This document shows positions 13,044 through 22,343 of a stretch of DNA of 22,343 nucleotides, in pieces (within the stretch, counting starts at the first letter, position 1; each line of letters starts with the position of its first letter). The translations under genes and the position numbers were made by a program. The notes beneath the pieces were generated by a model. The model had not been told where the DNA came from and ran no database searches. It saw nothing but the letters and a program-made list of their open reading frames with translations. This DNA is from Thermoplasmata archaeon (GTDB lineage Archaea; Thermoplasmatota; Thermoplasmata; Thermoplasmatales; Thermoplasmataceae), in assembly GCA_021811635.1 (NCBI GenBank), contig JAJZNS010000052.1, positions 1 through 22,343 on the forward strand. Reading direction: 5' to 3'.

Positions 13044-14192
13044 TCAATTGATAATCGATATAATTTGAGCTCCTCCCATTCCGGCCGCAATGCAAGCTAC
13101 GTACCCGGGGACATTGTGTTCCCCTTCCCGAAGGGAGAAGAGTTCCCCCTTCATCCTTATGCTGAAATTCTTATTTACCTTAATCCTGACAGGCACATCG
13201 GAAGAATCTGGAATGGCATCTGAAAGCGGATCATAACTATTCAGCTGGGAAAGGGGGACGGGTTTCACAATCATGCCGGTCTTTCCATGCAGGCTGAAAG
13301 GGTACCTTATGAGCCTGTGGACGTCGGTCGTAACAGGCTCGTCTATTTCACATGCCCGTTCTTCCCTTACCTCATCTATGATACTGGACACGACATTGGT
13401 GTCATATTGGTTAAGGAACCCATACTTTTCCCTGCCTGGGCGCAGGAATACCTGGATTCTTTTAGCTCTCGTGCCGAGAAAATTGATCTCCGTCTCGAGA
13501 GCGGACTGCATGGCGGATATTTCCTTTTCCCCCATAAATGCAGGGAACATGCCCTTCGAGATACCCTCATAAATGGAGACGACAGCGTCGTCGATCCACT
13601 TCAACCACCCCGTGAACCTTGCCGAAGATTCCAGGATCGGAAGAGCGTCTTTGATAGTGAGCCCCTCGCCCCTTACGAGATTGGAAATCTCCCTCCTCGC
13701 ATCCGAACTCAAGGAGTAGACCTTTTCAGAGACCACATGGACATGGTACCCTCTACCACCTGAGAAATAAAGCTTCAGTTCGTCCTCCCCGAATCCTGCC
13801 ATACCCATCAGAAAATCCTGTACAAGCCTGTAGGTGTGTTTCCTGACTTCCAGAAGGATCTGCTCATAGGTCATTGAAGGCGCCCCCTTTAGATGATCTG
13901 CATCCAGATCGAAGATCAACTCTGCGCCCTGCCACCCCTTATCATTCATCTTTTTCTCCAGCGGGAATTTATAGTAGGTGCTGGAATAATACAGGTGTCT
14001 CGGGACCTTCTCATAGGCAAACTTTTCTATTTCCTGGTGGGTCCGGAAACCCATGTGCCTTACCATTGTGCCGTCAAACGGTATGTACCCAATCTCCCTC
14101 TTTGAGATCTGATCGGGTTCCACAGACCTGAAATTCCTGTAGTATCTGCCAAACAGTTGCTTCAGGCCAGCTGTTCCGTTGAACTCAGGCAT
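13044..14192 (-). CDS. priS: DNA primase small (catalytic) subunit PriS
   Basis: 382 residues from the preferred start. PriS is the catalytic half of the archaeal/eukaryotic-type primase and works with PriL, which is not in the window. The catalytic pair is in LIFDLDADH (Asp95 and Asp97 from this start), the SGGRGYHVHV motif follows near residue 144, and the third acidic region is near TTDVHRLIRYPFSLHGKTG. No Cys lies between DLDADH and the next helix, so the zinc knuckle of the Pyrococcus enzyme is absent. The open frame extends to an ATG at 14234, but I chose the ATG at 14192 (MPEFNGTAGLKQLF): the extra 14 residues are atypical and the region holds a TATA-like box correctly placed for 14192. 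Confidence 0.94.
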   Translation of the reverse strand: MPEFNGTAGLKQLFGRYYRNFRSVEPDQISKREIGYIPFDGTMVRHMGFRTHQEIEKFAYEKVPRHLYYSSTYYKFPLEKKMNDKGWQGAELIFDLDADHLKGAPSMTYEQILLEVRKHTYRLVQDFLMGMAGFGEDELKLYFSGGRGYHVHVVSEKVYSLSSDARREISNLVRGEGLTIKDALPILESSARFTGWLKWIDDAVVSIYEGISKGMFPAFMGEKEISAMQSALETEINFLGTRAKRIQVFLRPGREKYGFLNQYDTNVVSSIIDEVREERACEIDEPVTTDVHRLIRYPFSLHGKTGMIVKPVPLSQLNSYDPLSDAIPDSSDVPVRIKVNKNFSIRMKGELFSLREGEHNVPGYVACIAAGMGGAQIISIIN

Positions 14193-14215
14193 CAGGAACA
14201 AGATTCGATCGTACG

Positions 14216-14225
14216 CTATAATTGT
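14216..14225 (-). promoter_or_regulatory. Probable TATA box of priS
   Basis: The minus strand reads ACAATTATAG, centred about 28 bases upstream of the ATG at 14192. This favours a leaderless or near-leaderless priS message and the shorter start. Confidence 0.4.
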
Positions 14226-14239
14226 ATTCAACATGGGCA

Positions 14240-14582
14240 GGATGACATGCTGTGGATATCTGCTGCCTTCGGAGTCGGTACTGTTGCGATTTGCTTTCCC
14301 GCTGTTCCATGAAGTTACAATTAAGTGCAGCCGTAGAATGGGTAGCTGCTATCGCAATGATCGACAAAGATGACATGATTTCATGCGACCGCTCAGTCAT
14401 TCAGTGTATAATCAGTTCTTGTTTGTCATAGACCACGCCTGCATTCCACCGCACAGCCCATGTTGTAAGGAACACCCCGTCACATTGCTCCTGATACCTG
14501 TTCCGCCGTACATGAACCACGTGCGCTCACGCATGTAAGTGATATTTCACTTCCCGCCGGGAGAGAGGATGCGGAAAATAAG
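14240..14582. other. Gap upstream of priS, no recognisable gene; small hairpins
   Basis: No gene is recognised here. A 40-codon minus-strand frame (14412-14534, starting MRERTWFMYGGTGIR) and a neighbouring frame in another phase look like decayed coding sequence, but I recognise neither. Near the right end are a 6-bp hairpin at 14537-14552 (AAGTGA-TATT-TCACTT) and a short TCCC-GCC-GGGA hairpin just after it. These lie within 50 bases of the group II intron 5' end. Confidence 0.3.
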
Positions 14583-14840
14583 GTGCGCCGTTGAAGATGG
14601 ATAACCATGAGTGAAAATCTCAACGTATTAATAACCGGAAGATACGAAGCGAGGGTAAGGATGGATTGGCAAAAGTTCCGTCTGAAGCAACCCGACAGCG
14701 TGAAACATGGGTCCTTAGCAATAAGGATCAGAGATCTCTACGCGAAGCCGCAGGTTTGAATGAAAAGGAACCTGTGTGTAGCGTCGTAATCCGCACCTCC
14801 AGTAATGGGGTGAGTGAACGTGCCGATCCTGTCTTATTAT
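14583..14840 (+). ncRNA. Group II intron 5' end and partial domain I (truncated)
   Basis: The segment starts with GTGCG, the group II 5' consensus. A stem CGTTGA/TCAACG then encloses TGG-ATAA-CCA and GAG-TGAAAA-TCTC, the latter like the GGGTGAAAGTCCC hairpin of bacterial introns. Next come GCGAGGGTAAGG with the matching TCTGAAGCAACCCGAC (GGGT pairs with ACCC) and, between them, the GATGGA/TCCGTC stem. An 8-bp hairpin with a GNRA loop (GGTCCTTA-GCAA-TAAGGATC, 14710-14729) and a CAGGTT/AACCTG stem (14751-14774) follow. The order and motifs match domain I of bacterial-type group II introns. It stops exactly at the inverted end of the insertion sequence at 14841. Domains II-IV and the reverse transcriptase are not here. 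Confidence 0.72.
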
Positions 14841-14851
14841 GAGACTGTCAA
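14841..14851 (+). repeat. Left terminal inverted repeat of the insertion sequence
   Basis: GAGACTGTCAA pairs perfectly with the repeat at 15943-15953. It abuts the group II intron domain I sequence. Confidence 0.8.
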
Positions 14852-14914
14852 TTCCTGGTTGAAATTCTGTGATGATCTGCCCCATGACCGCAATCATGAA
14901 ATATCACGAGTGCA

Positions 14915-15946
14915 TTGTATTCCATGCGGATACTCCGGATTCCGGGCATAAAGAGGGTCGTGATCCCCACAAACCTCGACGACTATTCCGGCGATCATCC
15001 ATCATCGCCATTGAAACTGGAGGAACAGCCCAAAGGCATCGGGTTCCTCACAGACGAAACTCCGTTGCTTCATTATTCCTGCCCTGTCTCTCAGAGATGT
15101 GTATCGCGCAACGTTGCAAGGAACTGCACATACATGCGCGAGATCCACGGCACACTGTAAAGGTACAGAAATACGTCTGCAGGGACTGTTCATATTCATT
15201 CGAAGCACGCCTTCCGGGATACGGATATAGAAAACACTTTCCAGACGATCCGGGGGACAAGAACGCCAGATCTCGGGTGATCTCATCTCCCAGGAAAGCG
15301 GCGAAGATGCACGGAATATTCCTTGGGATTTCCGTCTAGCATGAAGCCATAAAGGGAGAACTGGGAGAGGATGCAACAACGGTGTTCATGCTGGATACAC
15401 TGAAGCGATTTGATATCTCTTCCAGAGCAGGGATCATCATCACAACGGACGGATCTCATTACGGCGATGCAATCAAGTGCGTTTCCCGCGCCATGAGGAT
15501 CGGGATGGCCGGGCAGAGGTGCCTGTTCCACATCCTCAATGGCCTGACCAGGAAGGCGTATGATGCCGGAAAGCCGGAGGAACTGAGGGATGCCCTGGAT
15601 CTGGTAAACTACATGTTCTTCCTGACCCTGAGAACTGGGGAATAATTCTGAGCCGATTGCAAGGATCGTCTCCGGGTTGCCGGAGAAAAAGGTGACATTC
15701 AGGATACTCGATCCTGTCCGTGACCTGTATTCCGGAGACCCGATTATGGGGAAGTTCCTGGAGTTCCTCAAGAGGAACAGAAGACAGGTGTTCGGGTATC
15801 TGGAAGATGACAGGGTGCAGAAGGCGAAAAACATGACTGAACCCCATTTCTCCATGAGATTGGAACTTCTGAAGAGGAGGTTCAAGACAGACGGCGGATT
15901 GCTGAGAACATCCTACTGGTATCACAAGTTCTCAACGGAGATTTGA
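14915..15946 (+). pseudogene. Transposase pseudogene, zinc-ribbon DDE type
   Basis: The reading frame must be pieced together. Frame 1 (14915-15160) gives VVIPTNLDDYSGDHP, then YSCPVSQRC and NCTYMREIHGTL. A frameshift near 15157 leads to KVQKYVCRDCSYSFEARLPG, completing a zinc ribbon. An in-frame TAG at 15337-15339 (after GIFLGISV) interrupts it. It resumes as HEAIKGELGED..MLDTLKRFDISSRAGIIITTDGSHYGDAIK, the middle catalytic Asp region, and on to RCLFHILNGL. A second frameshift near 15644 gives SGLPEKKVTFRILDPVRDL through to LLRTSYWYHKFSTEI. The step from HEAI straight to the TTDG region looks too short for such transposases, so the segment with the first catalytic Asp seems deleted. It cannot be active. 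Confidence 0.85.
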
Positions 15947-15953
15947 CAGTCTC
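15943..15953 (-). repeat. Right terminal inverted repeat of the insertion sequence
   Basis: TTGACAGTCTC is the exact reverse complement of 14841-14851 and contains the TGA stop of the transposase remnant. Confidence 0.8.
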
Positions 15954-15966
15954 CTCTTAAAGCAAG

Positions 15967-15976
15967 TTTAATAAAT
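15967..15976 (+). promoter_or_regulatory. Probable TATA box of the surface-protein operon
   Basis: TTTAATAAAT is centred 25-26 bases before the ATG at 15997 and starts only 14 bases after the insertion-sequence end. The spacing predicts a leaderless mRNA. Confidence 0.5.
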
Positions 15977-15996
15977 TCACTAATGATGTTACGCTG

Positions 15997-16692
15997 ATGC
16001 TCGCGGCAATCAGGAAACATAAGGCAGTTGTCATAGCAATAATGCTTGCCATTGTAATAGTTGCCCCGGCATACTATTTCCTTATGCCCAGAGGTGCTGC
16101 CAGTTTACCGGTGATTACCGCCACGAACGCAACGACGGTTTACGACTGGACTGAGGATTTTTCAAACACCTCAGTAGCTTGGTTTTTCCTCAACGGGACT
16201 TTTGATACCGAATTCACGAACGGTTACTTGGGATATATTTATGCAAATTCAACTGTGCATCAGAAGGGGTATCCTGAGTCACACTTATACGTCAATCTTA
16301 AAGCTGGATACTCACCACAATCTTATAGTCTGGATGTTGGAGTGAACGTCACCGGGTACACTTACCTTAGTCCGAGTCCCAATGAGCTTAACATATCGTT
16401 CCGTGAGAATCTACCAGGCGCATTCTCTAATGTATCGTTTGTAAATTACTGGATCAATGCGACAACTGTGAAGGATACTTTAGGATACGCACAATTTACT
16501 TTGAACAACGGTTCCGGTATTGGAAGCGATCATGGATACCGTTTCTGTGCAAACTGGAGCGGATCTACAACCCTTTTCTATCCGCTGAAATCAAGCTACC
16601 CCTATCTGCTTAAGATAACCGTTTCCATAGGTGGCCTCTATGCACCAGTGACATCAACATTCATCGTCAACTTCACGGACGTGAAATCATGA
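15997..16692 (+). CDS. Membrane-anchored extracellular protein of unknown function
   Basis: 231 residues and not recognised as a known family. A short basic N-terminus (LAAIRKHK) precedes one strong membrane helix (about residues 10-30), most likely a signal anchor with the rest outside. The exterior part is rich in Ser, Thr, Asn and aromatic residues and has 11 N-glycosylation sequons, typical of archaeal cell-surface proteins. The RKHK-AVVIAIML boundary also resembles a class III (pilin-type) signal, a weaker alternative. The fold looks beta-rich (alternating hydrophobic residues). The stop overlaps the next start in ATGA, so it is translationally coupled to the large secreted protein and probably acts with it. 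The AT content is visibly higher than in the flanking core genes. Confidence 0.85.
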   Translation: MLAAIRKHKAVVIAIMLAIVIVAPAYYFLMPRGAASLPVITATNATTVYDWTEDFSNTSVAWFFLNGTFDTEFTNGYLGYIYANSTVHQKGYPESHLYVNLKAGYSPQSYSLDVGVNVTGYTYLSPSPNELNISFRENLPGAFSNVSFVNYWINATTVKDTLGYAQFTLNNGSGIGSDHGYRFCANWSGSTTLFYPLKSSYPYLLKITVSIGGLYAPVTSTFIVNFTDVKS

Positions 16693-19373
16693 AAAGCAGA
16701 TCCAAATTACTCAGAACCCTGCTTTCTCTGCAGTTCGCCATACTGATGATCGTTTCTTCCCTTATGGTGCTGACTTCATCCTCCGCAGCATCCCCTGCCA
16801 CGGAAAATACCGCTCTGGTTCCCGGAGCCCCTGTACACTATGATTGGGTTGGATACGCCGGAAACGATACGGTTTACCTTTCATCCGGCTTAAAAAGTAA
16901 TCTTCTTCTGTCTCAAAGTTTGCCCGGAACTGCAGGAGCAAGCTTGGTGACTGCCAATACGAGTTATACTGACTTTGATCGAAACCAAGTCACTAACAAA
17001 GTGCAGGTCGCGAATGATGTCGAAATGGGAACTGGAGGCAACATTGCCCTTGGAGGTGGAAATAACTTTTCATTTTCTGAACAATATCATCCTGCAGGTC
17101 CACGACTGGAAATCGCAGTGCCAATTGTCGTAGCAGTAAAGTCCGCTACATTCAACGAATCCAATAGAATGCTGGACTATGTCAATGATGCTTCCGAAAA
17201 TATTTATCCAAGCTGGCAAAACATTTCGGCCTGGGGAGTAAATATTTCCTCAGTCATTACAGGAATAAAACAATCAGATTATGGATACGTAAACCAACTA
17301 AATGAAACCGGTTTGTTTGACGAAGCGGTTAACTCATCCACATCCATAGATCAAAAACTGATAGGCAGCGATTACTGGGGCATCATACTGAGAATTGCGG
17401 ACATGACTGCAGGGGTCCTTAATGCTGCGTTGCCATTTTTACTTGGAAGTGACCCTGTTCCTATTCTTGACTTTATAAAGATTCCGCTTACGGCTTTCAC
17501 TTTTACCTATGACGCATATGATCTGGTTCAGGGAGTCCAAGGTTCGGCACAGAAGATTGTTCAAATCCCAGTGTGGAGAACCAATTCGTACGAACCGAAT
17601 CCAATATACCACAATTATACGGCAACGAATGGAACCTTCTGGGGGTCAAACTGGTCAGAGCTCGCAAGCGAGTTCAAGAACAGCAATTATTCAGATTCGA
17701 ACAGTAGCTATGAAGGGCCACCTATCGTACCTGCCGAAATTAACTACACGAATACGTTTTTCTGCAACGAGATGTTGCATTATTATATCTGGAAGCCTTA
17801 TTTCAACCAGTCCGGATACCTCAACCTGACTGCACAGAACTACATTTCACAGCAAAACCCAGGACTCTTCGCTACGTTAAACAACGATTCAAGTGCTCCT
17901 CTCCCCGGAGCCAAATCAACACTCAGCATCCACCTTGTGCCTGCAAACACGCTTTGGGGTCAAGTCATAGTAGATAATATTACAACATTAAAGAATCAAA
18001 ATATACTTATCACCCAGAAAAGCAGCAGCGGACAAGTGACTTATTTCTATGAAAAGATCAATGGGAATGGAAGTTATAGATTCATGGCACATCCCGGTTG
18101 GAACTACACCCTTCAGGCAGTAACGCCGTATGGCCTTACTAATGGTAAATCAGTTACCCCTTACGGTGAGGGTGGCACCGAGCTTACCCTAAACACCTAC
18201 CAGTCCAGATTGGGAATATCTGTTACAGAGGATGGGTTACCATCCGGTGATCAGTGGAGCGTGACATTGGGTAGCAATAGTAATGGTTACCAGACAGAGT
18301 TAAGCACTTCCCAGACTGTACTATTCAATGTCAGCAGTGTGGTGGATAACGACAGCTATATATTCAGCTATAACTATAACGCATTTGCGGAAGGTGGATT
18401 CAACTTCACATCCCCGGCAGGTGTTATTTCCGCTACTAACCTCTCTCCCATAGTTATCCTGAAAGCAGTCCCAGCAACCGGGAGCATAACCTTCCTTGAA
18501 TCTGGCCTGCCTGCCGGAGACGAATGGTCGATATACTTTTGGGTAACCGGGCAAACCATAAGCACCACCAGTTCGGGTATACTGTTCACCAATCTGCCCT
18601 ATCTGGGATATGGTTATACCGTTATATCGCCAAAGGGTTACACATCCACCCCTCAGATGTCGAGCGTTAACCTAAACTCGAATTCGGTAACTGTGAACAT
18701 AACCTTTTCCAAGATCCCCCCAACCAAATACAGCATCACGTTCGAGGAGAAGGGATTACCCTCAGACACTAGCTGGGGGGTGAAATTCAATGGCACACTG
18801 GTAAGCTCCACCACGCCCATCACTTTCTACGCTGTCAACGGAACGTACCCGTTCAGCGTCCCTGATACCATGTCCGGGAAATACACATATGTTTCGTCTC
18901 CGTCCAGCGGAACAATCCTGGTGAATGGTAGCAACCAGGTGCTGACCATCAGTTTCAATACCAATTACAATTCCTGCGTGAATCTCACCACCCCAATACT
19001 GATGGCCAACGGAACCTACGAACTTGCAAAATACATAACCGCAGGGGACAGGATAATGACCTACAATTACTCCACCGGGCAGCTGCAGCCGGAAACGGTG
19101 GAACTGGCTTATCATACGCCGCAGAAAGGTCAGGTGGCGATAAACCATTTCCTCCTGATCGCCCCGGACCAGAAAGTTCTCACCAGCAGGGGATACCAGG
19201 AAGCCATGAACCTCACCATAGGGGAGAGAATATACAACATATTCACCGGTCACTGGACAAGGATCAACTCACTGTACTCCCGGCAGGGCACTTTCACCAT
19301 GGTTGACTTTTACGTACTCGTCAACCATGACTATGTTGCCTGGTTCTACGTTATGGAGGACAAGATAATTTAA
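16689..19373 (+). CDS. Large secreted surface protein with GLPSG-type repeats and C-terminal Hint-like domain
   Basis: 894 residues. A signal peptide covers about residues 1-34 (basic start, hydrophobic core, SSSAAS cleavage region). Residues 35-500 are sequon-rich and unrecognised. Three beta-sandwich-like repeats follow: 508-598 (EDGLPSGDQWSV), 599-680 (ESGLPAGDEWSI) and 681-758 (EKGLPSDTSWGV), a module common in Thermoplasmata surface proteins and thermopsins. From Cys763 (SCVNLTTPILMANGTYELAK, then YITAGDRIMTYN) to the end there is a Hint-like domain, including KVLTSRGYQEAMNLTIGERIYN. Its usual TxxH block reads APDQ (825-828), and no terminal His-Asn is present, so self-splicing or autocleavage is unlikely. 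The protein has over thirty sequons and no C-terminal membrane anchor; attachment may come from the coupled upstream protein. The last third is richer in GC than the first two. Confidence 0.88.
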   Translation: MKSRSKLLRTLLSLQFAILMIVSSLMVLTSSSAASPATENTALVPGAPVHYDWVGYAGNDTVYLSSGLKSNLLLSQSLPGTAGASLVTANTSYTDFDRNQVTNKVQVANDVEMGTGGNIALGGGNNFSFSEQYHPAGPRLEIAVPIVVAVKSATFNESNRMLDYVNDASENIYPSWQNISAWGVNISSVITGIKQSDYGYVNQLNETGLFDEAVNSSTSIDQKLIGSDYWGIILRIADMTAGVLNAALPFLLGSDPVPILDFIKIPLTAFTFTYDAYDLVQGVQGSAQKIVQIPVWRTNSYEPNPIYHNYTATNGTFWGSNWSELASEFKNSNYSDSNSSYEGPPIVPAEINYTNTFFCNEMLHYYIWKPYFNQSGYLNLTAQNYISQQNPGLFATLNNDSSAPLPGAKSTLSIHLVPANTLWGQVIVDNITTLKNQNILITQKSSSGQVTYFYEKINGNGSYRFMAHPGWNYTLQAVTPYGLTNGKSVTPYGEGGTELTLNTYQSRLGISVTEDGLPSGDQWSVTLGSNSNGYQTELSTSQTVLFNVSSVVDNDSYIFSYNYNAFAEGGFNFTSPAGVISATNLSPIVILKAVPATGSITFLESGLPAGDEWSIYFWVTGQTISTTSSGILFTNLPYLGYGYTVISPKGYTSTPQMSSVNLNSNSVTVNITFSKIPPTKYSITFEEKGLPSDTSWGVKFNGTLVSSTTPITFYAVNGTYPFSVPDTMSGKYTYVSSPSSGTILVNGSNQVLTISFNTNYNSCVNLTTPILMANGTYELAKYITAGDRIMTYNYSTGQLQPETVELAYHTPQKGQVAINHFLLIAPDQKVLTSRGYQEAMNLTIGERIYNIFTGHWTRINSLYSRQGTFTMVDFYVLVNHDYVAWFYVMEDKII
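18210..18962 (+). repeat. Three tandem GLPSG-type domain repeats within the secreted protein
   Basis: Each unit is about 78-91 residues. The repeats start near ISVTEDGLPSGDQWSV, SITFLESGLPAGDEWSI and YSITFEEKGLPSDTSWGV, and units 2 and 3 end in a V-x-I-x-F strand. They are divergent protein repeats, not DNA repeats. The first unit is the least conserved in its second half. Confidence 0.75.
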
Positions 19374-19581
19374 GGCCATCGTACTTGATTTGAGCCATTT
19401 GATTTTGGACAGATATTCCGTCTTCCAATGAGACATTTTCTATTAACCTCCTTTTCTTCTCAATTCTGTTTTTCATTCTTCTTTCCTCCTTTCTGTTCCT
19501 CTCTTCCAGAAATTTAATCCTGAAATTCTCATTTTCATACCATCTCCTTTCAAATTCATCCGGTGAAAGGAACGAATGCAT
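19351..19581 (-). CDS. Small charged hypothetical protein (uncertain)
   Basis: 76 residues and not recognised. The first half (MHSFLSPDEFERRWYENENF) and a long Glu/Lys/Arg run (residues 22-48) predict one extended, charged helix or coiled coil. It overlaps the end of the convergent surface-protein gene by 23 bases. No Shine-Dalgarno or clear TATA box precedes the ATG. A second minus-strand frame upstream overlaps it by about two dozen bases, so it may be the tail of a gene broken by a frameshift. Confidence 0.4.
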   Translation of the reverse strand: MHSFLSPDEFERRWYENENFRIKFLEERNRKEERRMKNRIEKKRRLIENVSLEDGISVQNQMAQIKYDGLKLSCPP

Positions 19582-19708
19582 ATTCTATACATTTCTCTGC
19601 ATCTTCAAATTGTTCAACACAGCGTATTACAAAACAATATGCAAATGGTGATACGATACACCGTCCCCACACAATAGGGATCTTATCCGCAACAACAACC
19701 ACTCTCAC
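19556..19708 (-). pseudogene. Short open frame, probable gene remnant
   Basis: A 50-codon frame from a GTG reads VRVVVVADKIPIVWGRCIVS, continues with FAYCFVIRC and ends EKCIEYAFVPFTG. The composition looks like real protein, but there is no start signal and the frame is open only 6 codons further upstream. It runs into the 19351-19581 frame in another phase, so the two may be pieces of one decayed gene. No family is recognised. Confidence 0.3.
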
Positions 19709-19926
19709 AAATTCATTTGCCGAAAGTCAAGTTCGCACACAGCCTGGAATCGGACATCTTCAATGGTGTATGGGACTACACGCAGTGCAGACTGATGCAC
19801 ATGCACCGCTGGCAGCACAACAGGCCAGGCACATGGAAAAACGCTGATATCATGAATCCCGGGCTGTCCATCATGGAGACAAAGCCATCCACCTTTCTGG
19901 AAGAACTGCATGATTCCGTCCCATGA
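19678..19926 (+). other. Open plus-strand frame ending just before intron domain V
   Basis: The open frame contains FAHSLESDIFNGVWDYTQC and ends FLEELHDSVP with a TGA at 19924-19926, 11 bases before domain V. In group II introns the reverse transcriptase normally stops shortly before domain V, so the place fits a C-terminal remnant of that protein. However, I see no reverse transcriptase, maturase or HNH motif in it. It may equally be a chance frame. Confidence 0.2.
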
Positions 19927-19937
19927 AGGCAGTCGGT

Positions 19938-20009
19938 AAGCAGTGTGCGGGAAAACCGCAAGCGCTGTTTGATGAGAGGCTTCTGGGTAACGCCAGAAAT
20001 CTAATCTAC
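19938..20009 (+). ncRNA. Group II intron domains V and VI with 3' splice site
   Basis: Domain V: lower stem AGCAGTG/CGCTGTTT with the catalytic AGC triad at 19939-19941, a 2-base AG bulge, and upper stem TGCGG/CCGCA closed by GAAAA. This is the canonical domain V layout, except that the loop has five bases where four are usual. Domain VI (19971-20009): GAT pairs with ATC and AGA with TCT, leaving A20003 bulged opposite G, then a TTCTGG/CCAGAA hairpin. The bulged A is 7 bases from the end ...TCTAC, matching the usual branch-point distance and the AY 3' end. Confidence 0.78.
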
Positions 20010-20041
20010 GAAGAAAATCAGCATCCCGGGAACTGGATCTC

Positions 20042-21586
20042 CTAAACCGGGAAACTGACGTCCTGCGATAGAGGGATGTCGTTTCCGTAGTTGATAGTGA
20101 CTGTCTGTCTCTTCATATATGCCTTCCAGGCATCGGAACCGCTCTCACGTCCTCCACCGGTCTCCTTCTCCCCTCCGAATGCGCCGCCTATTTCAGCGCC
20201 TGCGGTTGCGGTGTTTACGTTGACTATTCCACAATCGCTCCCCCTTGCGGAGGTGAATTCCTCTACCTCTTTCAGATCATTCGAGAAAATCGAGGAAGAC
20301 AGCCCCTGCGGGACGGAATTGTGTATCCGGATGGCTTCTTCCAGGTTTCTGTACTTGAATACATACAGTATTGGCGCAAAGGTCTCCTTCCTGACGATGT
20401 CCATGTCAGGGCTAGCCTCAACTATTGCAGGTACAACGTAGTTCCCGCCTTCGAATCCGCTTATCTCTGCTTCTGTTCCGCCGAAGATGGTCTTTCCGCC
20501 CTGTTTTCTGGCCTCTTCTATTGCATTCCTGAATTTTGCCACGGCATCCTTGTCTATCAATGGACCCACCAGAACGCTATTTTCCAGGGGATTGCCTATT
20601 TTTGCCCGCCTATAAATATCCTTAATTCTATCCATGAACTGTTCGTAAACTTTCTCGTGAAGTATCAGCCTCCTTGTGGAGGTACATCTCTGCCCTGCCG
20701 TTGCAAGAGCACCGAATGAAACGCCCTTCGCTGCCAGCTTCAGGTCACACCTGTCGGAAACCACTGCTGCATTGTTTCCTCCAAGTTCCAGTATACTTCG
20801 GCCCAGCCTCCCTGCAACGCCTTCCGCTATCCTCTTTCCTGTGGGAACTGATCCCGTAAAGGAAATCAGAGGCAGGCGCCTGTCTGTGGCCATCTTGTTG
20901 CCTGTTTTCTTTCCTTCTCCTGCGACGAGGAAGAAAATTTCCGGTGACTTTAGCCTCTTGATTACCCTCTCTGCCACTTTCGTAATGGCAGCAGCAGTCA
21001 GAGGTGCTTTAGAAGACGGTTTCCATACAACCACATCACCGCATACGGCAGCGATCAGGGCATTCCATGACCAGACTGAAGCTGGGAAGTTGAAGGAAGT
21101 GATCACGCCGATTGGTCCAATTGGGACATATTGCTCTATCATCCTGTGCCTGCTGCGTTCGCTAGCGATTTCCAGCCCGTACAACTGTCTGGAAAGCCCT
21201 ACTGCAAGGTCCGCGACGTCGATCATCTCCTGGATTTCGCCTTCACCCTCGGTCAGAGTTTTGCCGACCTCTATGGAGAGAAGCCTGCCCAGATTTGACT
21301 TGTTCCTCCTCAGTTCTTCTCCTATCTCCCTTATTATGGAACCACGCTTTGGCGCAGGAATGTCGCGCCACTTCAGGAATGATTCCTCTGCGGCCGAAAC
21401 CACCTTCTCATAATCATCATCGCTGGCAAGGGTTATCTCGGCGGTTTCTTCCCCGTCTATCGGAGAAATAGATGCGATGCTCTCCCTGCCATGGGTCTCA
21501 GCCCAGATTCCATAATATGTACCGGAATTCAGCTTCCCCAGTCCCAGGGCACTCAGAACGTCCTTTTTCTGTGACTTTATATCCAT
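20042..21586 (-). CDS. Aldehyde dehydrogenase, ALDH7 (aminoadipate-semialdehyde/antiquitin) type
   Basis: 514 residues, the size of ALDH7 enzymes. NAD(P)-dependent aldehyde oxidation is supported by SFNFPASVWSWNALIAAVCG with VVVWKPSSKAPL (cofactor site), FTGSVPTGKRIAEGV, the catalytic Glu in LELGGNN (near 268) and the nucleophile Cys in TAGQRCTSTRRL. The C-terminal GGAFGGEKETGGGRESGSDAWK and RQTVTINYG are hallmarks of ALDH7, whose members oxidise alpha-aminoadipate semialdehyde in lysine breakdown. The substrate in this organism is inference; no other lysine-pathway gene is in the window. It is separated from rsmA by 23 bases, which hold a TATA-like element. Confidence 0.93.
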   Translation of the reverse strand: MDIKSQKKDVLSALGLGKLNSGTYYGIWAETHGRESIASISPIDGEETAEITLASDDDYEKVVSAAEESFLKWRDIPAPKRGSIIREIGEELRRNKSNLGRLLSIEVGKTLTEGEGEIQEMIDVADLAVGLSRQLYGLEIASERSRHRMIEQYVPIGPIGVITSFNFPASVWSWNALIAAVCGDVVVWKPSSKAPLTAAAITKVAERVIKRLKSPEIFFLVAGEGKKTGNKMATDRRLPLISFTGSVPTGKRIAEGVAGRLGRSILELGGNNAAVVSDRCDLKLAAKGVSFGALATAGQRCTSTRRLILHEKVYEQFMDRIKDIYRRAKIGNPLENSVLVGPLIDKDAVAKFRNAIEEARKQGGKTIFGGTEAEISGFEGGNYVVPAIVEASPDMDIVRKETFAPILYVFKYRNLEEAIRIHNSVPQGLSSSIFSNDLKEVEEFTSARGSDCGIVNVNTATAGAEIGGAFGGEKETGGGRESGSDAWKAYMKRQTVTINYGNDIPLSQDVSFPV

Positions 21587-21603
21587 AGCTGGATAGCTGT
21601 CAG

Positions 21604-21613
21604 CATAAATTAA
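21604..21613 (-). promoter_or_regulatory. Possible TATA box of the aldehyde dehydrogenase gene
   Basis: The minus strand reads TTAATTTATG, centred 22-24 bases before the ATG at 21586. It overlaps the last codons of rsmA. The spacing is slightly short for a leaderless start, so confidence is moderate. Confidence 0.35.
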
Positions 21614-22343
21614 GGTTTTTTCTCTTTCAGCGTATTTCTCATTATGTCCAGGAGTTTCAGGAACTGAACCTCACCCAGTTCTTCAATTCTCATATCGCCA
21701 AGCTCCGGAGGAAGTCCTGGCAAGACATTTTTCAGTTTCTTCCTCTTACCGGCAAATGCTGTCCGGAGGATGTCCTCATATTTGTCGGGATACATCATTT
21801 CCTTCCTTTCAAATCTAAGTATAATTGAGTCGACCTTCGGCGCCGGAGTAAAGAAAGTTCTTGGAACGTTTCTGATTCTTCTGGCATTCACGTTAAGGTA
21901 GGATAAGGCTGATATCCTCGAGAATCCCCTTTGGCCAGGTAGTTTCAGCAATTTTTCTCCGAACTCTCTCTGGAACATGAGGACCGCAAATCTGAAGCTG
22001 GATTTGCAGAGAAGCTCGAACAGCGGGGAGGATATAGAATAGGGGATGTTGCCTGCGATCCCGTCTGTATTCAGAACTCCAGGAAAATCAAGAATGTTGC
22101 CCTTTACAATGGAAAGTCTCCCTTCACCCAATTCAGCGCTGAATCTCTCTCGCAGCACATCAATAAACCTGTGATCGGTCTCCACTGCCTTGACGTAATA
22201 CCCAATTTCGAGGAGAAAAGCAGTCAGAATGCCAGTGCCTGGCCCAATCTCAACAACTTTTGAGCCTGCAGGGAGGGATAGGGCTCTAGCCTCGGCGCGT
22301 GCAACGGATGCATTTCTGAGAAAAACCTGGCCGTACCGCCGGT
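21610..22343 (-). CDS. rsmA: 16S rRNA (adenine1518/1519-N6)-dimethyltransferase RsmA (KsgA/Dim1), 5' end missing
   Basis: About 244 codons are present, and the frame is open to the right edge of the window, so the true start lies outside. The enzyme dimethylates two adjacent adenines near the 3' end of 16S rRNA late in small-subunit assembly. The N-terminal RRYGQVFLRNASVARAEARAL corresponds to the family GQxFL segment. VVEIGPGTGILT is the S-adenosylmethionine loop, and GNIPYSISSPLFELL is the NxPY catalytic motif. FFTPAPKVDSIILRFERK and the C-terminal helical domain follow. A GTG at 22185 is internal and not the start. Confidence 0.96.
   Translation of the reverse strand, partial: RRYGQVFLRNASVARAEARALSLPAGSKVVEIGPGTGILTAFLLEIGYYVKAVETDHRFIDVLRERFSAELGEGRLSIVKGNILDFPGVLNTDGIAGNIPYSISSPLFELLCKSSFRFAVLMFQREFGEKLLKLPGQRGFSRISALSYLNVNARRIRNVPRTFFTPAPKVDSIILRFERKEMMYPDKYEDILRTAFAGKRKKLKNVLPGLPPELGDMRIEELGEVQFLKLLDIMRNTLKEKKP

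Follow-up and report, generated by a model that had tools for sequence, protein, structure and literature searches.

Two ends of a group II intron, very probably one copy hollowed out by insertion sequences, enclose a surface-protein operon in an archaeon

Two intron ends around a surface-protein operon

The window (the whole stretch of DNA analysed, 22,343 nucleotides) is archaeal, and the nearest genome among those compared, G001, shares 79% of sampled 31-mers with it. Between priS and an aldehyde dehydrogenase gene (ALDH), the window holds the two ends of a group II intron and, enclosed by them, insertion sequences (IS) or their remnants and a two-gene operon (Table 1). The IS at 14841-15953, the two open reading frames (231 and 894 aa) and the decayed frames had been noted between the intron ends in a first-pass annotation, and our analysis confirmed all of them; the decayed frames (19387-19731), unnamed until now, are the end of an IS3-family element and a probable IS1634-family end.

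Table 1 Features of the locus, in window coordinates
Feature	Positions	Strand	Basis
5′ exon IBS1, six bases preceding the intron	14577..14582	+	Exact complement of 14833-14838
Group II intron 5′ fragment (domain I start)	14583..14840	+	258 nt; G021 match, RF02003
EBS1, intron nt 251-256	14833..14838	+	Same place as G021 EBS1
IS66-like insertion sequence, transposase gene broken	14841..15953	+	1113 bp; 11-bp inverted ends
231-aa protein, probably secreted or membrane-anchored	15997..16692	+	ORF; relatives G001:C26, G004:C21
894-aa protein, probably secreted, C-terminal Hint domain	16689..19373	+	ORF; Hint domain
IS3-family element, 3′ end	19387..19618	-	DNA repeats; relatives in G029, G016
End fragment, probably IS1634-family	19619..19731	-	Common to G032:C2, G032:C22, G024:C190
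Last 64 codons and stop of intron reverse transcriptase	19732..19926	+	Protein match to G021; open frame
Intron domains V and VI, 3′ end	19936..20009	+	RF00029; G021 match

The two ends are real, lie on the same strand and are compatible with one intron family. Decisive for both are their matches, far beyond chance, to an intact group II intron of 2027 nt in another genome (G021:C16), which encodes a 436-aa reverse transcriptase/maturase (399.7 bits against NCBIfam TIGR04416, group II reverse transcriptase/maturase). In DNA comparisons, 14583-14832 matches nt 1-251 of this intron at 78% (E 1e-53) and 19736-20009 matches its last 289 bases at 67% (E 1e-34), and both fragments are collinear with it and in the same orientation. 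The 5′ fragment begins with GTGCG, a GUGYG-type end as expected of the relic of a mobile group II intron. Rfam models agree below their curated cut-offs, with RF02003 (domain I start) matching 14605-14703 at 31.4 bits (E 0.0011) and RF00029 (domains V-VI) matching over model positions 1-77 of 77 at 36.3 bits (E 6e-4; cut-off 40). The shared orientation of a 5′ end at 14583 and a 3′ end at 20009, reported earlier, is thus borne out by both the Rfam and the G021 matches, and the match of both fragments to the one intact intron fits a single intron family. Against so simple a reading stands the 3′ fragment, which resembles copies in G035:C54 (73%) and G032:C60 (72%) more than it does G021 (67%). 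Neither copy allows a comparison at both ends: the G035 one shows no similarity to the 5′ part of the G021 intron, and the G032 one is truncated where its contig stops.

The window copy agrees with the G021 intron at both termini, in the position of EBS1, in domains V-VI and in the C-terminus of the reverse transcriptase; unlike it, the window copy has lost an interior of ~1.5 kb, corresponding to about nt 259-1735, and is split by IS and the operon. The 5′ fragment breaks off at EBS1, within domain I and upstream of the position of the reverse-transcriptase gene. The remainder of domain I is missing, as are domains II-III and the greater part of the maturase. The absence of domains II-III had been remarked on in the first-pass annotation and holds against the intact intron. 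Its statement that there is no reverse transcriptase does not hold, as the C-terminal end of the protein persists: 19732-19893 matches residues 368-421 of the G021 reverse transcriptase (59% over 54 residues, E 4e-16), in a frame that stays open to a stop directly before domains V-VI.

G001, which is 91% complete, contains one intron 3′ end and one 5′ piece, and we found no other intron piece or maturase domain in it. Given this and the missing domains, splicing and movement are not expected, and the intron remnant should neither splice nor move. Trans-splicing with domains supplied from elsewhere was considered and rejected on the same inventory of G001, with the reservation, set by its 91% completeness, that the argument is not absolute.

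One insertion site between priS and ALDH

The six bases at the end of the 5′ exon pair exactly with EBS1 (AATAAG/CTTATT). Across the 200 upstream bases, which contain 195 six-mers, pairing with the EBS1 loop is confined to the six-mer at the junction. The G021 intron has its own EBS1 at nt 252-257, with different letters and exactly complementary to its own exon, so that the pairing covaries between the two copies. In total, nine intron 5′ ends were examined for EBS1, four of which start with GTGYG; among these four, the window and G021 copies pair exactly, a search of the G035:C48 intron gave no exact EBS1, and the contig carrying the G032:C55 end stops before EBS1. That two copies pair at the same place with different letters suggests EBS1-guided targeting in this Thermoplasmata intron family, as is usual for group II introns.

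In G002, a genome of the same genus, the whole 5.4 kb is absent between priS and ALDH. One G002 contig, the first of two loci returned by a search of the genome contigs with the priS protein, aligns with window positions 13878-14265 and 14393-14555 and, on the other side, with 20035-22343, and only 18 bases separate the alignments to 14393-14555 and 20035-22343. Both intron ends therefore mark one insertion site. G002 is a low-coverage draft (62% complete); its alignment is not clean over the 52 window bases adjoining the site, and it also lacks ~110 bases at 14266-14392, so the empty site is established to some tens of bases rather than to the base. The first-pass annotation had named an empty site joining 14582 to 20010 in a relative as proof of a single unit: the locus without the 5.4 kb was found, its junction placed to within tens of bases. 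In the window, the two arms of a six-base inverted repeat, at 14567-14572 and 20021-20026, flank the insertion site; no such repeat was seen in the aligned G002 sequence, and six bases can match by chance.

The same alignment bears on whether the ends descend from two separate intron copies, one on either side of the operon, that recombination later cut back. Multiple related copies do occur in some genomes, for example six each in G032 and G035, but the outer flanks here are the two sides of one site, adjacent in G002, such that both copies would need to have entered at practically the same place, and G001 has no other copy. We consider this explanation, raised in the first-pass annotation, very unlikely.

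priS and ALDH are also neighbours in G003 and G004, where the interval holds a different large gene encoding 1119 and 1128 aa, respectively (L128:4088-7474 and L129:4992-8351). The protein is probably secreted and, judging from its sequence, we take it to be a sedolisin-like protease; against Pfam, the 1128-aa protein gave CarboxypepD_reg-type and DUF4397 matches, all below cut-off. No remnant of this protein was found by tblastn in window positions 14001-20060, where the sole match had an E value of 0.11. The placement of this gene in G003 and G004 shows that priS and ALDH are old neighbours, and its absence from G002 and the window indicates that the interval changes content repeatedly.

Insertion sequences at both inner borders

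Both inner borders of the intron are ends of IS. On the 5′ side lies an element with inverted ends GAGACTGTCAA, related DNA of which was found in 15 of the 61 genomes, G001 included. Its transposase gene is in three pieces and two frames in the window. The IS66 assignment reflects a weak resemblance: an open-frame relative in G012 scored 23.3 against the Pfam DDE_Tnp_IS66 cut-off of 23.1 and 27.6 against the NCBIfam IS66 cut-off of 180, which is far below it. The window element lacks a flanking 8-bp duplication. Of the five other copies with both ends, whose flanks we read by eye, one has such a duplication (G004:C15, clean), so its absence here argues only weakly for recombination. When the loci were scanned by pattern for paired IS ends, the window copy alone came up.

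On the 3′ side, the stretch 19374-19735 is repetitive, with matches in 16 of the 61 genomes. Its IS3 part (19387-19618) matches an IS3-family relative of 329 residues in G029 over residues 251-327 (E 8e-8), and a relative in G016 scored 211.8 bits against the IS3 family model. In the three places that share the adjoining fragment with the window, similarity breaks off no more than a few bases from the point at which intron sequence begins again (fragment end at ~19731). The name IS1634 is only probable for this fragment, because a transposase gene of that family (153.8 bits) adjoins it in one of the three places, G032:C2.

The locus in G001 lies on two contigs, with 99.5% identity to 14583-15814 and 99.4% to 15688-20009. 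Both contigs break inside the 5′ IS, one (C2) ending at 15814 and the other (C10) starting at 15688, and their exact overlap of 127 bases is what a k-mer overlap would give; G001 alone does not, therefore, prove passage through the IS. This pattern would suit an assembly chimera joined via a repeated IS. Against it, the neighbouring priS and ALDH of G002, G003 and G004 indicate that C2 and C10 belong together, in this order, and the other junctions of the locus are carried by the two contigs themselves. A chimera is thus extremely improbable.

The operon occurs without the intron

The first gene of the operon encodes a protein with no Pfam match, and the second a protein with matches in 45 of the 61 genomes, mostly to its repeat region. 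In G004, the two genes are adjacent (47% and 50% identity), the second being broken by two stops within the match, and no RF00029 match was found in that genome. A further copy of the first gene in G001:C26 shares 38 bases of the leader and retains just the first codons of the second gene. Its neighbours, judged by their sequences, presumably encode an aminopeptidase and a methionyl-tRNA synthetase, and the stretch has no match to the intron ends. At the locus itself, G001 lacks one base at window position 18013, so that its 894-aa gene falls into two frames; this is either a strain difference or a sequencing error.

Conversely, we looked for the operon beside other introns. Intron 3′ ends were found in 12 of the 61 genomes, at 23 places in all, a count obtained with strict filters that may have lost some weak ones. 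Leaving aside the G001 place, neither operon protein was encoded at E 1e-3 in the 21 loci with the 22 other 3′ ends; five of these loci are under 3.2 kb, such that their surroundings were little tested.

These observations, together with the borders, speak to the idea that the intron carries and moves the surface operon as cargo in its domain IV. An operon lying between two intron ends in one orientation is what first suggests it, and such cargo should sit inside domain IV and recur with the intron. Here, however, the intron ends at EBS1 in domain I, ahead of its reverse-transcriptase gene, the catalytic core is lacking, IS sequences occupy both borders, the two genes stand without an intron match in G004, and neither protein is encoded at any of the 21 loci, five of them short. 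The cargo reading, rated the least supported in the first-pass annotation, is accordingly most improbable, and what might have been a novel class of intron with cargo drops out of consideration.

An intein-like Hint domain in the large surface protein

The 894-aa protein ends in an intein-like Hint domain (18975-19370), which is also present in seven relatives in other genomes. A profile built from the eight sequences matches mini-inteins (7cfv, E 1e-6), and five of the eight match Pfam Intein_splicing at E values up to 1, the best being 2.5e-4. The structural model of the Hint domain has a mean pLDDT of 67, which is moderate (49-51 for the other four models), and resembles bacterial-intein-like domains in Foldseek (E 5e-7, TM 0.66). 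The first cysteine is kept in all six rows that reach that position. The block-B histidine and the C-terminal His-Asn, which we take to be intein motifs and looked for in the domain, are missing, so that self-processing is putative only. No proteins of this Hint type in Thermoplasmata were found in the literature by title, and this ending of a large surface protein may be more interesting than the intron relic.

Origin of the locus and relation to known introns

Taken together, the locus is very probably the remains of a single group II intron that was split and hollowed out by IS and now brackets an incoming surface-protein operon. It is an ordinary genomic relic rather than an intron with surface-gene cargo. 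Of the origins proposed in the first-pass annotation, an intron split by successive insertions is the one that fits, given the single site indicated by G002 and the EBS1-IBS1 pairing and the IS at both inner borders. One reverse-transcriptase-bearing intron would have retrohomed between priS and ALDH through this pairing, a step to which the outer borders, the pairing itself and the G002 locus without the insertion all attest. IS would then have struck the intron, with deletion or recombination between them removing the ~1.5-kb interior; the IS at the inner borders and the missing interior are directly visible, and the process and the order of the insertions are what we infer from them. The operon, with its own leader, lies between the IS66-like element and the IS3/IS1634 remnants, and it would most likely have come there either through IS-mediated recombination or by travelling along with the IS cluster; it would need nothing from the intron. 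A further, tentative and rather unlikely reading is that dead elements act as a landing pad, IS recombination having swapped a surface cassette with the Hint protein into the intron relic. If so, this would be among the routes by which surface proteins may be traded from locus to locus in these archaea.

Fragmented group II introns of bacteria and group II introns of Thermoplasmatota are both already known. Group II introns are reported in 15% of the Thermoplasmatota genomes surveyed in PMC8919778, so their presence here is not novel; a split copy of the kind in the window is not described in the passages of that survey consulted. Decay of bacterial group II introns to inactive fragments is covered by PMC4496777, on RmInt1 inactivation, and intron fragments in Enterobacteriales by PMC3522654. 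These two reports stress loss of 3′ ends, whereas in the window both ends survive and the interior has been replaced. We found no comparable split-intron locus in a search of the literature by titles. The locus offers a worked example of an archaeal group II intron dying under IS attack.

Several other introns and fragments were noted in passing. A plasmid search returned six records, each aligning over ~63 bases around domain V only. The intron copy in G035:C54 (L230:1213-2482) has an open reverse-transcriptase frame of 395 aa and no recognisable 5′ part, which suggests the outcome of a 5′-truncated insertion. Finally, no maturase domain was found in the genomes G017 and G057, each of which carries a group II intron of ~0.7 kb (L221:2254-2923 and L224:2248-2923, respectively) with Rfam D1D4 and D5-D6 matches within 670 bases, and both introns therefore look ORF-less.
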